A stretch of DNA of 64,000 bases from Burkholderiales bacterium (GTDB lineage Bacteria; Pseudomonadota; Gammaproteobacteria; Burkholderiales; Burkholderiaceae_C), in the NCBI GenBank assembly GCA_947372465.1, contig CANBTT010000008.1, forward strand, positions 1 through 64,000, read 5' to 3'. The notes under the pieces are model-generated. The model saw nothing but the letters and a program-made list of their open reading frames with translations, searched no databases and was not told the origin of the DNA. Numbering within the stretch: position 1 is the first letter of the stretch; each line of letters opens with the position of its first letter. Positions 33,108 to 38,224 of the stretch are shown piece by piece. The translations under genes were made by a program, and so were the position numbers.

Positions 33108-33536
33108 ATGATTCAGAACAACTCCGACTTGATTGCGTTTTTTCAAAGCATTCATATTTTGGCCCTTTCAGCCGTGTTCATGGCCATGCTTGTTTTCAAC
33201 ATTCGCTTGATCACAGGCAGGCTCAGTGATGAGGCGTTTTTAAGTGGCTTTAAGTACAACGCTGTCATCGGCTTGCCTGTGTTGTTGATCACAGGTGTTT
33301 TTTTGATCATCGCGGAGCCTGCAAGGTCCCTGGCCAATGATGCATTTCAGTTGAAGATGGTTTTGTTGGCCATCGTTTTGCTTCTTTATCGATACCTTGG
33401 TCGCTTTGCAATGCCTACAGTGAATTTTTCGCACAAACATGTAGAAGTGACTCTGAGTAAAAAATTTTTGGCCCTGTTATCCATTTTGATTTGGATAGGT
33501 ATTGTTTTTGCGGGTCGATGGATCGCTTATCTTTGA
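33108..33536 (+). CDS. Four-helix membrane protein, DUF6644-like (first copy)
   Basis: The 142-residue protein has four predicted transmembrane helices. The first begins FFQSIHILALSAVFMAMLVF and contains a His; the third (QLKMVLLAIVLLLYRY) starts with a Lys; the fourth ends AGRWIAYL. The next gene has the same pattern, so the two are likely paralogues. The start at ATG 33108 is uncertain because the nearest AGGAG is about 15 bases away. No enzyme motif is seen. The function is unknown. Confidence 0.7.
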   Translation: MIQNNSDLIAFFQSIHILALSAVFMAMLVFNIRLITGRLSDEAFLSGFKYNAVIGLPVLLITGVFLIIAEPARSLANDAFQLKMVLLAIVLLLYRYLGRFAMPTVNFSHKHVEVTLSKKFLALLSILIWIGIVFAGRWIAYL

Positions 33537-33545
33537 GTGAACACT

Positions 33546-34058
33546 ATGAACGAATTGAGTGACTTGTTTAAATTTCTCAATGACTCCAATCTGGGTGTCG
33601 CGATCCGTGAGAATGACTATTTGTTTCCAAGCATTGAATCCTTGCATGTGCTGTCGGATGCGGTTGTCTTTGGCTCCATTGCCATGGTTGATTTGCATTT
33701 GTTGGGCTTGACCTTCAAGCGCAGTAATTTCGCCAAGGTCTCGACCGAGTTGTTGCCTTTTACCTGGTTTGCATTTGTCTTTGCGTTGATCAGTGGTGCA
33801 TTGCTGTTTGTCTCAAGCGCAGTGAATTATTCGGCGAACATCTACTTTCAAATCAAAATTGCTTTGTTGCTCTTGGCTGGCGTGAACATGCTGGTTTTTC
33901 AGCGCTTGATCAGTCAAGATCAACACCGCTGGGCCCAGCAGTCTCAAATCCCACGTTCTGCAAGGCTGGCTGGGTTGATCTCGCTCACCCTTTGGTTGGG
34001 CGTGATTTTGTGTGGTCGCTGGATTGGTTTTACCATTGAGCCAGTGTTGGTCAATTGA
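33546..34058 (+). CDS. Four-helix membrane protein, DUF6644-like (second copy)
   Basis: The 170-residue protein has the same plan as the preceding gene: a His in the first helix (ESLHVLSDAVVFGSIAMVDLHLLG), a Lys at the start of the third (FQIKIALLLLAGVNMLVFQ), and CGRWIGF at the end of the fourth. The conserved His and Asp could bind heme or metal, but this is a guess. A GTG nine bases earlier (33537) is an alternative start. It follows the first copy immediately, so the pair may form a complex. Confidence 0.72.
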   Translation: MNELSDLFKFLNDSNLGVAIRENDYLFPSIESLHVLSDAVVFGSIAMVDLHLLGLTFKRSNFAKVSTELLPFTWFAFVFALISGALLFVSSAVNYSANIYFQIKIALLLLAGVNMLVFQRLISQDQHRWAQQSQIPRSARLAGLISLTLWLGVILCGRWIGFTIEPVLVN

Positions 34059-34074
34059 ACGAAAGGATCGTTGA

Positions 34075-34911
34075 ATGAAACGTGTTTATCATGCGCTCAG
34101 TGCTGTTTGTCTCGGTGCATTTGTTTTGGGTGCATCCTTGCAAAGCCATGCACAAGTTGGTAGCAAGCCTGGTTTTAACGTCACGCCCTCTGCACGGGAT
34201 TGGCAAGACTTGGCAAAACTGCCTGATTGGAGTGGGACTTGGAATCCAAAAATCACGGATCAAGATCAACAAATCAAAACCAATATGCCACCTTGGAAGC
34301 CAGAGGTGGCCGAGATCATCAAGTTTCAATTGGCCGAGGAGAAGGCGGGTCGGCCCACGCCTCTTTTTGTGAACTGTTTGCCAGAGGGCATGCCCGCATG
34401 GATGCTGATTTCTCACAATTCAATGGAGGTTCTTTTTACCCCAGGCCGGGTCACCATGCTTGGGGAGTCGGATGGCAATCGATTGCGTCGAATTTATACC
34501 GACGGTAGAAAGCACCCAGAGGATCCAGATCCCACATTTCATGGTCACTCGATTGGTCACTGGGAGGGAGACACCTTGGTGGTCGATACGGTGGCCATTT
34601 TGCCCCAGGCCATCTTTGCCATCAGCGAGGCGGCTGGGGTGCCACACAATGGTGACATCCGTATCACCGAGAGGATTCGTTTGGTGGGCAAAGATGAGTT
34701 GCACGATGAGCTCTTGATCACTGCGCCCCATTTGTTGACCAAACCCTGGAAGACCAATCGCATTTCATTCAGGCAACGTGCTCAAAAATTTGATATCGTT
34801 GAAGGTGTCTGTTTGGAGGGCACTTTCAGGCCTGCAAAGGACGCCAAAGGATATGATATTTACGAACCCATCCCCATGGATATTGGCGGCAATAGAATTC
34901 CACCGCAATGA
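34075..34911 (+). CDS. Exported conserved hypothetical protein
   Basis: The 278-residue protein has a clear signal peptide (HALSAVCLGAFVLGASLQSHAQ), so it is probably periplasmic. The core motif is RIYTDGRKHPEDPDPTFHG followed by HSIGHWEGDTLVVDT, with many His and Asp residues. I recognise this pattern from uncharacterised proteins often encoded near DUF6152 genes, but know no function. AAAGGAT stands before the ATG. The stop overlaps the ORF of the next gene. Confidence 0.75.
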   Translation: MKRVYHALSAVCLGAFVLGASLQSHAQVGSKPGFNVTPSARDWQDLAKLPDWSGTWNPKITDQDQQIKTNMPPWKPEVAEIIKFQLAEEKAGRPTPLFVNCLPEGMPAWMLISHNSMEVLFTPGRVTMLGESDGNRLRRIYTDGRKHPEDPDPTFHGHSIGHWEGDTLVVDTVAILPQAIFAISEAAGVPHNGDIRITERIRLVGKDELHDELLITAPHLLTKPWKTNRISFRQRAQKFDIVEGVCLEGTFRPAKDAKGYDIYEPIPMDIGGNRIPPQ

Positions 34912-34928
34912 TGATTAAAGGACCTATG

Positions 34929-35363
34929 ATGAAAAAACCAATGAAACACCTGTTGCTGTCATTGAGCATGTTTTTAGGCATGTCTCACTTGCAAGTGGCT
35001 CAGGCCCACCACTCAACCACCATGTTCGATCACGCTCAAAGTGTCACCATCACCGGTGTGATCAAGGAGGTCCAATGGACCAATCCCCATGTGGCCATTT
35101 TTATATCGGGTGCCATCAAGGACGAGGAGCCCACGGTTTGGTTGATGGAGATGACCAGTCCCGGTAATTTGACGAGGGTGAGCAACTGGACGCGAAATTC
35201 AGCAAAGGTGGGTGACAAAGTTGTGGTCGCTTTCAGTCCTCTTCGAAATGGCAAAAAGGGTGGGGCCTTGAAGAAAATGACGCTTGAGAGTGGCCGCATG
35301 CTCACCACCGATATTCGCGCACAAGAATCTGCCAATTTGGACGAGGTTCAAAGCGGCAAGTAA
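34929..35363 (+). CDS. DUF6152-like exported protein
   Basis: The 144-residue protein has a signal peptide (HLLLSLSMFLGMSHLQVAQA) and then HHSTTMFDHAQSVTITGVIK, with QWTNPHVAIFISG after it. If cleavage occurs before HHS, two His lie at the mature N-terminus, a setting suited to copper or nickel. The rest resembles a small beta-barrel. The ATG at 34929 is 7 bases after AAAGGA; others at 34908, 34911 and 34926 are possible. It is the last gene of the module. Confidence 0.75.
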   Translation: MKKPMKHLLLSLSMFLGMSHLQVAQAHHSTTMFDHAQSVTITGVIKEVQWTNPHVAIFISGAIKDEEPTVWLMEMTSPGNLTRVSNWTRNSAKVGDKVVVAFSPLRNGKKGGALKKMTLESGRMLTTDIRAQESANLDEVQSGK

Positions 35364-35411: not shown

Positions 35412-35440
35412 GAGAAGGCGCTTTATCAGCGCCTTCTTTC
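35412..35440. terminator. Bidirectional rho-independent terminator
   Basis: GAAGGCGC (35414-35421) and GCGCCTTC (35429-35436) form a perfect 8-bp stem around TTTATCA, flanked by pyrimidine-rich TTTC on one side and its mirror on the other. It lies between the convergent DUF6152-like gene and the MmgE/PrpD gene, and overlaps the latter's stop. Confidence 0.7.
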
Positions 35441-36803
35441 AATCGATGTACACGGTCTCCAAGTGCGCGAAGTTCAGCACACGGTCAATGAGCTGAGTTG
35501 TTTTTTCATGGCTCAATCTTGTGTGCAGTTCCGCAGTTAATTTTCTCAAGTGATCCTTCAATTCATACGGTCTTGAAGCGCTGCCTTTGGGTGCTTGAAC
35601 AAAATGACTGGATGTGGTTTTGTCGCTCCAAGTCACAGTGAGCTTTGCACTCACCGATTCTTGAGAGCTGGTGGCTTCAACTTGCTCGTCCAAATGACAA
35701 TGAATTTTTTCGCACAAGGCCCTCACACCTGCGTCTTGGATGAAGCGCTCAAAGTCATCCATGTTGATCGATTGCTCGGTATTTTTTCTTAAGTAAAGTG
35801 CAAGTGCCACGCAAAAGGGCGCAGACATCTGGGCCGCTTGAACATCCTTTGGCTTGCTTGACGTTAAGCGCCCAAAGATGACCTTGGGGACGCCCAGATC
35901 GATGCGTTCAATTTTTTGTGGGTCAAAATCCTTTGTCTCCACAAAAGTCGAGGCCGCTTCAATGGCCGAGAGCACCCGCGCTGAGCTCGCATGCGGTTTG
36001 ATGGCCACACCCGCTGTCTCATAATGCTGTCCCAAGCCATTGAGCAGCTGCCCCAAGTCCAAGTTGTCTGAGTAGGCTTTGAAGAAGCCATCCTCGCCCT
36101 CGAGAATGTCCACTGGCCCATCAAAGCCAGCCTCCACCAAGAGCGCGGCCTTCACGCCCGAGCTTGCGGCTTGTGCGGCATGCAGTCTTTTAACGGTTGA
36201 GCCAGAATGAAAAAATTGGGTCAATCCACCACAAAATGAGGCGGCCACGCCCAGCGTTTGGGCCACTTTTTCGGCGCAATCAGGGCCCTTAAAGATCAGT
36301 TTTGCCGCGGTCACTGCAGCGCCCAAAACACCACAGGTGGACGTGCTTTGAAAGCCTCGCTTAAAGTGACCGGGTTGAATGGCAAGTCCCAAACGAATCA
36401 TGCTCTCATACCCGGCCAAGATGGCGTCCAGTGTTTCAAGGCCTGTGCTTTGACGTGCTTGGGCCACGGCCAAAGCGCTGGAGATGACCACACACCCTGG
36501 GTGCAGCATCGCGCCGACGTGAACATCATCCGCGTCCACGCTGCCTGAGTAGATGGTGTTTAAAAAGGTGCAACTGACAGCATCGAGTTCAAGCTCACCA
36601 AAGAGGACTCGACTGATGCCAGCGTGGCTGGTCTTGGCAGTGAAGTCTTCACTCCAGCGACTCCAGGGCATGCGTTGACCAATGGAGGCAACACGAAAAT
36701 AGTCAAGCAAGCACGCAATCAATTGATCTTGAATCGCTTTTGGGGCAAGCGAATATTTCGCACTTGCGACAAATTCAGACAGTTCTAGTGTGGGTGCTTT
36801 CAT
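35439..36803 (-). CDS. MmgE/PrpD family protein (second copy)
   Basis: The 454-residue protein belongs to the family of 2-methylcitrate dehydratase and cis-aconitate decarboxylase. Visible features include SGSVDADDVHVGAMLHPGCV with the active-site Asp/His region and AHAAQAASSGVKAALLVEAGF-like sequence (LHAAQAASSGVKAALLVEAG). The ATG at 36803 overlaps the stop of the upstream paralogue. The two copies are clearly related but divergent. Members act as dehydratases, decarboxylases or isomerases, so the reaction cannot be given. Confidence 0.87.
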   Translation of the reverse strand: MKAPTLELSEFVASAKYSLAPKAIQDQLIACLLDYFRVASIGQRMPWSRWSEDFTAKTSHAGISRVLFGELELDAVSCTFLNTIYSGSVDADDVHVGAMLHPGCVVISSALAVAQARQSTGLETLDAILAGYESMIRLGLAIQPGHFKRGFQSTSTCGVLGAAVTAAKLIFKGPDCAEKVAQTLGVAASFCGGLTQFFHSGSTVKRLHAAQAASSGVKAALLVEAGFDGPVDILEGEDGFFKAYSDNLDLGQLLNGLGQHYETAGVAIKPHASSARVLSAIEAASTFVETKDFDPQKIERIDLGVPKVIFGRLTSSKPKDVQAAQMSAPFCVALALYLRKNTEQSINMDDFERFIQDAGVRALCEKIHCHLDEQVEATSSQESVSAKLTVTWSDKTTSSHFVQAPKGSASRPYELKDHLRKLTAELHTRLSHEKTTQLIDRVLNFAHLETVYID

Positions 36804-38224
36804 GATTTCAATCTCAGCTTCATCAAGGCACTCGTGTTGGGTAGGCGCGCAACATCCTGGGTCGATTCGATCCAGTCCAGGCATGCCGCAGCCCCCACCT
36901 TTTCTTGCGACAGGCTGATGAATCGGCTGGAGATGTCCGCAAGTTTCATGGGGTTGGCTGGGCAACCCAGTGGATGCTCAATGAAGTGTTCCAGCGTTGT
37001 GCCATCAAGCAAGCGACAGCGCACTCTTGCTGCCACAGATGCTTGGGAAGTTTTTTCCTCAACCTCAGGGTCCACGTAGCAAGAGACCTTTGAAGACAGT
37101 TTCATCACTTGAGGGTTTTCAAATGCCAAAGCGAAGTCATCAATGGACAGAGAAATGGGAGCTGCTCTGGTGAGGCTCAAGTAAAAAGCCATGGCCACTG
37201 CAAACGGCGTGCTCAATTGGGCTTGCTGGTGATCAACGGGCTGAATGGACGTGAGCTTACCCACCATGGCTGGATGCACGCCGATTTCTATCGACTCAAT
37301 CTGCTCAATGGGCAAGGGCTGTTGCGAGGCGATGCTCAAAGCGCACTCAATGGCACTTTGCATTCGGACACTGCCTGCATGAGGTTTGAGGGATATTTTT
37401 TCTATTTCAAAATACGACCCCAAGCGATGGGTCACCGTGGCTTCATCAAAGCGGTTAGAAAACGCTTTTCCAAATCCTTGAACACCCTCAATGGCATCAA
37501 AGGGACCACTGAGGCCTTGGTGAGCCAGCAGGGCAGCCTCGACGCCATTCATGGCGGCTTTGCCAGCGTGAAAGCGTTTGATGTCTGAGCCCGATACAAA
37601 AAACTGAGAAATCCCGCATGCAAACGTGGCTGCAATTCCAAGTGCATTGCGGTGCCCTTGAACGTCCAGTTTGAGCAATTTGGCACAAGCTGCAGCGGCC
37701 CCAAATGCACCGCATGTGGGTGTGCCTTGAAAGCCCCTCAAAGAATGCTCGGGTTGGATGGACATGCCAATGCGAATGGCTGTTTCATAGCCAACCAGGC
37801 AGGCCTCTAAGAGCTCTTTGCCAGTGGCTTGGGTCACTTGAGCCATGGCAAGGGCTGCGGGCCACACACAAACGCCTGGATGGATGATGGCCGCCACATG
37901 CGAGTCATCCCAGTCCAAGCTGCCACACGCCGTGCCGTTGATGAAGGCCGCTTTTGCAACATCGACTTGCAGATCGTGCAGCATGACTTGTGCATTTCGA
38001 TCCGATTGGTGGTGCCGATAAAGAGACAAAATATCTTGGGTCCATTTGCGATCAATGCCGCCAACACTTGCTCGAAAAATGTCGATCATCAAGACATGCA
38101 AAATGTCCTTGACGTGAGCAGGCACTGCATTCCATTGCAGATCATGGCCAAACTGTGCCAGAGCTTGGGTGGCCCCCCCTTGAGGCAAACCCTGAAATGG
38201 ATCATTGATTTTTGATGTTTGCAT
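36800..38224 (-). CDS. MmgE/PrpD family protein (first copy)
   Basis: The 474-residue paralogue of the neighbouring gene has ACGSLDWDDSHVAAIIHPGV, CGAFGAAAACAKLLKLD and RFHAGKAAMNGVEAALLAHQ, matching the MmgE/PrpD fold. The active-site Asp and His region appears intact. It overlaps the Bug gene upstream by 23 bases and the next paralogue by four, so the three genes form an operon. A hetero-oligomer of the two copies is possible but not shown. Confidence 0.88.
   Translation of the reverse strand: MQTSKINDPFQGLPQGGATQALAQFGHDLQWNAVPAHVKDILHVLMIDIFRASVGGIDRKWTQDILSLYRHHQSDRNAQVMLHDLQVDVAKAAFINGTACGSLDWDDSHVAAIIHPGVCVWPAALAMAQVTQATGKELLEACLVGYETAIRIGMSIQPEHSLRGFQGTPTCGAFGAAAACAKLLKLDVQGHRNALGIAATFACGISQFFVSGSDIKRFHAGKAAMNGVEAALLAHQGLSGPFDAIEGVQGFGKAFSNRFDEATVTHRLGSYFEIEKISLKPHAGSVRMQSAIECALSIASQQPLPIEQIESIEIGVHPAMVGKLTSIQPVDHQQAQLSTPFAVAMAFYLSLTRAAPISLSIDDFALAFENPQVMKLSSKVSCYVDPEVEEKTSQASVAARVRCRLLDGTTLEHFIEHPLGCPANPMKLADISSRFISLSQEKVGAAACLDWIESTQDVARLPNTSALMKLRLKS

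Follow-up and report, generated by a model that had tools for sequence, protein, structure and literature searches.

A conserved envelope module linking paired DUF6644 membrane proteins, a predicted lipocalin-like barrel and an exported DUF6152 protein to a cytochrome c′-like lipoprotein

CopD is a single eight-helix membrane protein, and the CopC/CopD systems, represented by Bacillus subtilis YcnJ and Escherichia coli YobA-YebZ, share with the locus described here the combination of a small exported protein bearing a predicted N-terminal histidine and a multi-helix membrane protein. Further points of comparison are CusF, a periplasmic copper/silver chaperone; HemJ (UPF0093), the protoporphyrinogen oxidase family; the cytochromes c′ (PF01322); and the lipocalin/FABP-type calycins. 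According to the model proposed for CopC/CopD import, copper goes from the exported domain to a membrane domain carrying an essential histidine, and in YcnJ, a proposed importer, the N-terminal histidine brace of CopC and a conserved histidine of CopD are both required for copper-limited function (PMC13344008, PMC12362106). The literature searched names DUF6644 and DUF6152 in no paper, and it holds nothing that joins CopD with HemJ, UPF0093, DUF2214 or DUF2269, or histidine braces with OB-folds; the original prediction for this locus, which knew of no described function for the gene set, agrees with this search.

The window, the whole 64,000-nucleotide stretch of DNA that was analysed, carries four genes, M1, M2, P and D, that form a tight operon at 33108-35363, with spacings of 9 and 16 bases followed by a 4-base overlap. 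The original prediction had described two paralogous DUF6644-like membrane proteins followed by two exported proteins, one of them DUF6152-like, and profile searches bear out both family assignments: M1 and M2 each score 40.1 bits against DUF6644 (PF20349), above the curated cut-off of 27, and D scores 93.6 bits against DUF6152 (PF19649), for which the curated cut-off is 27. The features of the locus are as follows.

33108-33536, plus strand: M1 gene, encoding a DUF6644 four-helix membrane protein of 142 aa
33153-33155, plus strand: codon of M1 His16, in helix 1, at what is inferred to be the periplasmic end
33354-33356, plus strand: codon of M1 Lys83, at the start of helix 3
33546-34058, plus strand: M2 gene, encoding a second DUF6644 four-helix membrane protein, of 170 aa
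33645-33647, plus strand: codon of M2 His34, in helix 1, likewise at the probable periplasmic end
33855-33857, plus strand: codon of M2 Lys104, at the start of helix 3
34075-34911, plus strand: P gene, encoding an exported protein of 278 aa with a predicted lipocalin/FABP-like (calycin-like) barrel and no Pfam family
34908-35363, plus strand: D gene, encoding an exported DUF6152 protein of 151 aa with a predicted OB-fold
35007-35012, plus strand: codons of D His34-His35, the predicted mature N-terminus
35413-35437, no strand assigned: inverted repeat AGAAGGCGC-tttatca-GCGCCTTCT between convergent genes, read from the sequence

The hairpin at 35413-35437 lies 3′ of D, before the convergent gene, and is likely a terminator shared by the two; it is absent from the output of the terminator scan. 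No fused module proteins emerged from the gene-fusion check.

Conservation of the set was followed computationally in one homologue collection and in two genome samples drawn regardless of the module, 150 genomes of the order and 249 of the phylum. The collection yielded 80 loci, namely 79 found on contigs with P relatives from other genomes, after one duplicate was dropped, together with the window itself; locus counts derive from clean HMMs built on alignments A2-A6, and gene calling was heuristic in the high-GC loci. P is followed by D in 80/80 loci, and the M1-M2 pair adjoins P-D in 62 of the 80, mostly in the order M1-M2-P-D; as the loci were picked via P, this count is uninformative on how frequently the membrane genes occur without it. 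The expectation that the four genes would recur together is thus borne out. The P-relative loci come from Burkholderiales, several Polynucleobacter isolates among them, and also from contigs that carry the labels Gammaproteobacteria, Alphaproteobacteria, Myxococcota and Acidobacteria. In three of these loci (L068, identical with L135; L137; and L138) the P-D unit is tandemly duplicated inside the module, which supports P-D as the inherited unit.

The genome samples reveal two architectures, a single DUF6152-DUF6644 pair (type A) and the window's own arrangement of two DUF6644 genes with P and D (type B). DUF6644 occurs in 23 of the 150 genomes of the order, every one of which has DUF6152 in the same module or at a distance of about 1 kb, and in 16 of the 249 genomes of the phylum, with DUF6152 within about 4 kb in 15; in the exception, G405, the closest DUF6152 gene lies about 31 kb from DUF6644. 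This is the one exception to the pairing among 38 distinct genomes across both samples, and the nominal linkage probabilities of about 1e-20 are too small because the genomes are related. P is confined in the order sample to exactly the five type-B genomes (G000, G025, G058, G072 and G131) and in the phylum sample to exactly the six genomes with at least two DUF6644 genes, and the minimal DUF6152-DUF6644 pair exists without P, and likewise without a full-length copy of the cytochrome described below. In type-A loci, clustering of neighbours gave no constant partner beyond the pair itself. Side observations in these loci include a DsbB-like gene near the pair in L074, L083 and L084 and, judged by eye, an ordinary cytochrome c′-like gene about 1 kb from the pair in L074 and L076. 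Separately, three phylum-sample genomes (G296, G300 and G323), all from a single family that belongs to a class other than the window's, carry up to nine P-like and up to eight DUF6152 matches, many of which lie away from DUF6644.

A fifth component, C, was absent from the four-gene set of the original prediction. It is a cytochrome c′-like protein whose gene sits beside the M1-M2 genes in the other type-B loci that were examined first and lies within 1.5 kb of the module in 28 of the 80 loci. Its members match Cytochrom_C_2 (PF01322) in 27/28 cases (E <= 1, best 3e-6), a representative scoring 26.7 bits against the cut-off of 26.5, and the C-terminal CxxCH motif is invariant in 38/38. In these respects C resembles cytochrome c′; it differs in forming a distinct subfamily, often with a lipobox-like N-terminus. 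In the window's genome the C gene (G000:C1:60088-60540, locus L225; 189 bits) is unlinked and lies on a different contig from the module, downstream of genes for a UbiD-family protein and an MFS-type transporter. Within the order sample of 150 genomes, full-length C (at least 150 bits) is present in precisely the five genomes that have P, each with two DUF6644 genes, and all remaining matches to the C model there score 27 bits or less. Of the six type-B genomes in the phylum sample, five have C (at least 50 bits), and the only further genome with it is G410; most other cytochrome matches in the genome samples reach about 32 bits or less against the C model. Co-occurrence of C with type B in genome samples makes the association independent of gene order. 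All five products carry computed features of exported or membrane proteins, and together they constitute a real, conserved and previously undescribed envelope module.

M1 and M2 are paralogues (25% identity, E 5e-11), and the DUF6644 profile is matched by all 54 M2 and 55 M1 homologues at a threshold of E <= 1. The features that the original prediction had noted in both proteins, a histidine in helix 1, a lysine at the start of helix 3 and GRWI in helix 4, correspond to H16, K83 and residues 136-139 in M1 and to H34, K104 and residues 157-160 in M2. The histidine and the lysine are invariant in 64/64 M1 and 64/64 M2 homologues and so are not a chance resemblance, and the C-terminal GR of the family is invariant or almost so, M2 R158 being nearly invariant. 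For these residue counts, as for the 38/38 of the CxxCH in C and the 91/91 of the His-His in D, segments were picked with earlier models, and the conservation agrees with the clean alignments. Further invariant positions are Q13, E70, P71, R73, F80, G136, R137, I139 and Y141 alongside H16 and K83 in M1 (alignment A5), and E31, G43, T73, F77, G84, F88, Y95, N98, N114 and S146 alongside H34 and K104 in M2 (alignment A4). Loop charge counts place the N-terminus, the helix 2-3 loop and the C-terminus outside according to the positive-inside rule, which would put the conserved histidine, lysine and arginine, all three of them at one end of the bundle, on its periplasmic side.

At the family level, M1 members match CopD in 29/55 cases (best 4.8e-7, E <= 1), DUF2214 in 24/55 and UPF0093 in 7/55 (best E 0.00095), and M2 members match DUF2214 in 41/54 and UPF0093 in 23/54 (best E 0.0031). 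The window's own M1 and M2 fall below the cut-offs of CopD (PF05425, 32.1 bits) and UPF0093 (PF03653, 34.2 bits), neither of which is matched anywhere in the window's genome, so DUF6644 looks like a superfamily relative that is a member of neither. From these matches across many members, M1 and M2 look like distant relatives of the CopD, HemJ (UPF0093) and DUF2214 membrane families. Residue-level alignments were treated as weak: hhalign, with small alignments, places M1 His16 and Lys83 on the conserved histidine and lysine of CopD (E 1.4e-3), the M1 HMM weakly places the M1 histidine on YebZ H154, and hhalign of M1 or M2 against a small HemJ alignment gives a probability of about 6% or less. 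The likeness to CopD therefore comprises the Pfam matches of M1 relatives and, in weak alignment, a histidine and a lysine at corresponding places; unlike CopD, M1 and M2 are two separate four-helix proteins. With HemJ they share four helices, the helix-1 histidine and the helix-3 lysine, in addition to the weak Pfam matches, but they lack HemJ's own motifs and showed no linkage to genes of heme biosynthesis. Most of the related genomes searched encode HemJ itself separately.

The DUF6152 profile is matched by 75/75 homologues of the exported protein D (E <= 1). The predicted cleavage site of D has alanine at -1 in 75/75 homologues and A, V, S, G or T at -3 in 75/75, and by the -3/-1 rule the mature protein is predicted to start at His34-His35, which sustains the proposal that D begins with HHS after signal cleavage. 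This His-His pair is invariant in 91/91 sequences, and type-A DUF6152 relatives start with AHHG in 16/16; the full invariant set of D comprises A33, H34, H35, W57, P60, H61, W78, E81, S84, G86, L88 and W94. D is modelled as an OB-fold (pLDDT 86), and among PDB structures CusF (1zeq) fits the model best (probability 1.00, E 3.2e-3, 20% identity); unrelated OB-folds come only slightly behind, and the fold is a common one. Against the NCBIfam CusF model, D reaches a sub-threshold 17.7 bits (E 0.0028; cut-off 143 bits), and no CopC or CusF homology is found at the Pfam level. D thus resembles CusF in being an exported OB-fold protein with CusF as its best structural match; it differs in lacking Pfam-level homology, and a CusCBA-type partner was not seen. 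The ligand set of CusF also differs from the conserved N-terminal His-His and internal Pro-His of D. Unlike CopC, D is modelled as an OB-fold and lacks the CopC fold.

The second exported protein, P, has a signal-like helix at its N-terminus, in keeping with its predicted export, and has no match in Pfam or NCBIfam. Searching the PDB by sequence returned no relative of either P or D. The AlphaFold2 model of P (pLDDT 86) finds its best PDB matches among barrels that bind fatty acids or bile acids (probability 0.98-1.00, TM 0.5-0.63 on target, E at best 7.7e-3), with nitrophorins among the weak matches. Conserved positions include a G-x-W motif near the start of the barrel (G54-W56) and the cysteines C101 and C246; homologues have exactly two cysteines after the signal region in 67/67, and many of the invariant residues are Arg, Asp or Glu. 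The predicted barrel of P and the conserved G-x-W close to the barrel start recall the lipocalin/FABP-type calycins; unlike them, P matches no Pfam calycin family by sequence, and it adds a helical region at the N-terminus and a conserved pair of cysteines. CopC/CopD has no counterpart of P or of C, and the module, as tested, belongs to none of CopD, CusF and HemJ.

In the window the module is surrounded by catabolic genes for MmgE/PrpD, acyl-CoA ligase, CoA-transferase and Bug-type binding proteins. The two MmgE/PrpD reading frames (35439-36965 and 36800-38224, both on the minus strand) are adjacent and overlap at 36800-36965, and the true start of the downstream MmgE/PrpD gene is probably internal, near 36800. 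The original prediction had suggested coupling of the module to these genes, and an accessory role of this kind can appeal to their presence around the module in the window and its closest relatives and to the position of the genome's C gene downstream of a UbiD-type gene. The neighbour set is common, however, only to the three closest relatives (L094-L096), and other lineages have housekeeping or unrelated genes in its place; Bug-type genes do recur near the module in 33 loci, but they are very abundant in Burkholderiales, so their recurrence discriminates poorly. Coupling to catabolism is accordingly very improbable, and this part of the prediction finds no support. Its broader suggestion of an envelope system handling a metal, heme or electrons fares better, being supported by the cytochrome c′-like C, the CopD/HemJ-superfamily likeness and the CusF-like fold. 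Elsewhere, TonB-dependent receptors lie near the module in 14 loci and a PepSY-like protein or cluster in 6; in L069, L070, L127 and L144, the module has TonB-dependent receptors of the siderophore type and a PepSY-like membrane protein as neighbours, which suggests a link to a metal or a chelate in some lineages. Recurring copper genes were not recognised beside the module in the loci, and no enzyme is constantly linked to it.

Transport of copper ions or transfer of electrons across the periplasm is the probable task of the system in many environmental bacteria. A tentative reading, given somewhat less than an even chance, is that the four window genes and the unlinked C gene form one envelope system for CopC/CopD-like copper handling with a redox arm. 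In such a system D would bind copper through its N-terminal histidines, like the histidine brace of CopC or of DUF1775 proteins, and would hand it to a periplasm-facing site on M1/M2 based on the conserved histidine, while C would give or take the electron that Cu(II)/Cu(I) cycling requires. P may hold a small bound ligand or dock D, a role proposed because P and D are always a neighbouring pair. The single-copy DUF6152-DUF6644 pair of other Burkholderiales might then represent this device in its minimal form. We infer the copper role, as well as the direction of transfer and the formation of a complex. The copper reading draws on the linkage and co-occurrence of the five genes, on the CopD matches of M1 relatives with the weakly aligned histidine and lysine, on the CusF match and predicted His-His start of D, and on the precedent of YcnJ. 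Against it count the lack of Pfam-level homology between D and CopC or CusF, the narrow lead of CusF over unrelated OB-folds, the weak profile comparisons of M1 and M2 with CopD and HemJ, and the failure to recognise a recurrent copper gene beside the module; simple copper import also leaves the requirement for P and a c-type cytochrome unexplained. A fuller version, which we regard as unlikely, envisages an envelope redox system of five proteins that is widespread among environmental Proteobacteria, in which D, with an N-terminal-histidine copper site on its OB-fold, and the lipocalin-like P pass copper or electrons to and from a CopD/HemJ-superfamily membrane pair and a dedicated cytochrome c′.

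The main rival to copper handling is electron transfer through heme on the periplasmic side, in which M1/M2 would hold heme b via the helix-1 histidine, perhaps with the helix-3 lysine, and C would hold heme c, the chain exchanging electrons with chemistry on a small lipophilic molecule held by P, and D serving as a copper protein or a structural partner. This reading, which we regard as rather doubtful, draws on the cytochrome c′ family membership and invariant CxxCH of C together with its co-occurrence with the module, on the UPF0093 matches of 23/54 M2 members, on the small-ligand barrel type of P with its invariant charged residues, and on the TonB-dependent receptors that adjoin the module in some loci. 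The UPF0093 matches are nevertheless weak (best 0.0031 for M2) and the hhalign comparison with HemJ yields about 6% or less, while the lack of a constantly linked enzyme and the occurrence of the minimal pair without P or full-length C also speak against a heme chain. A related proposal is uptake or reduction of a chelate (heme, siderophore or another metal-chelate), which a TonB receptor would import, P would hold and C with M1/M2 would reduce or strip. The siderophore-type receptors and PepSY-like protein beside the module in four loci would fit it, as would the small-ligand barrel of P with nitrophorins among its weak matches; the linkage is a minority one, with PepSY-like clusters in 6 loci and TonB receptors in 14, and the window's module has neither, making chelate processing quite improbable.

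Through the module, two Pfam families that lack a known function, together with a third family that has no Pfam entry, are tied to one another and to a specific cytochrome. If the fuller, five-protein version of the copper reading is true, D would carry the first histidine-brace-like site on an OB-fold, none having been found in the literature searched, and DUF6644 and DUF6152 would gain a function. Cultured hosts exist (Polynucleobacter isolates, Novosphingobium and Sphingobium), and the candidate ligand residues are invariant. A group of hypothetical proteins thereby becomes a testable envelope system, one that may reveal new copper or electron handling in common freshwater and soil bacteria.
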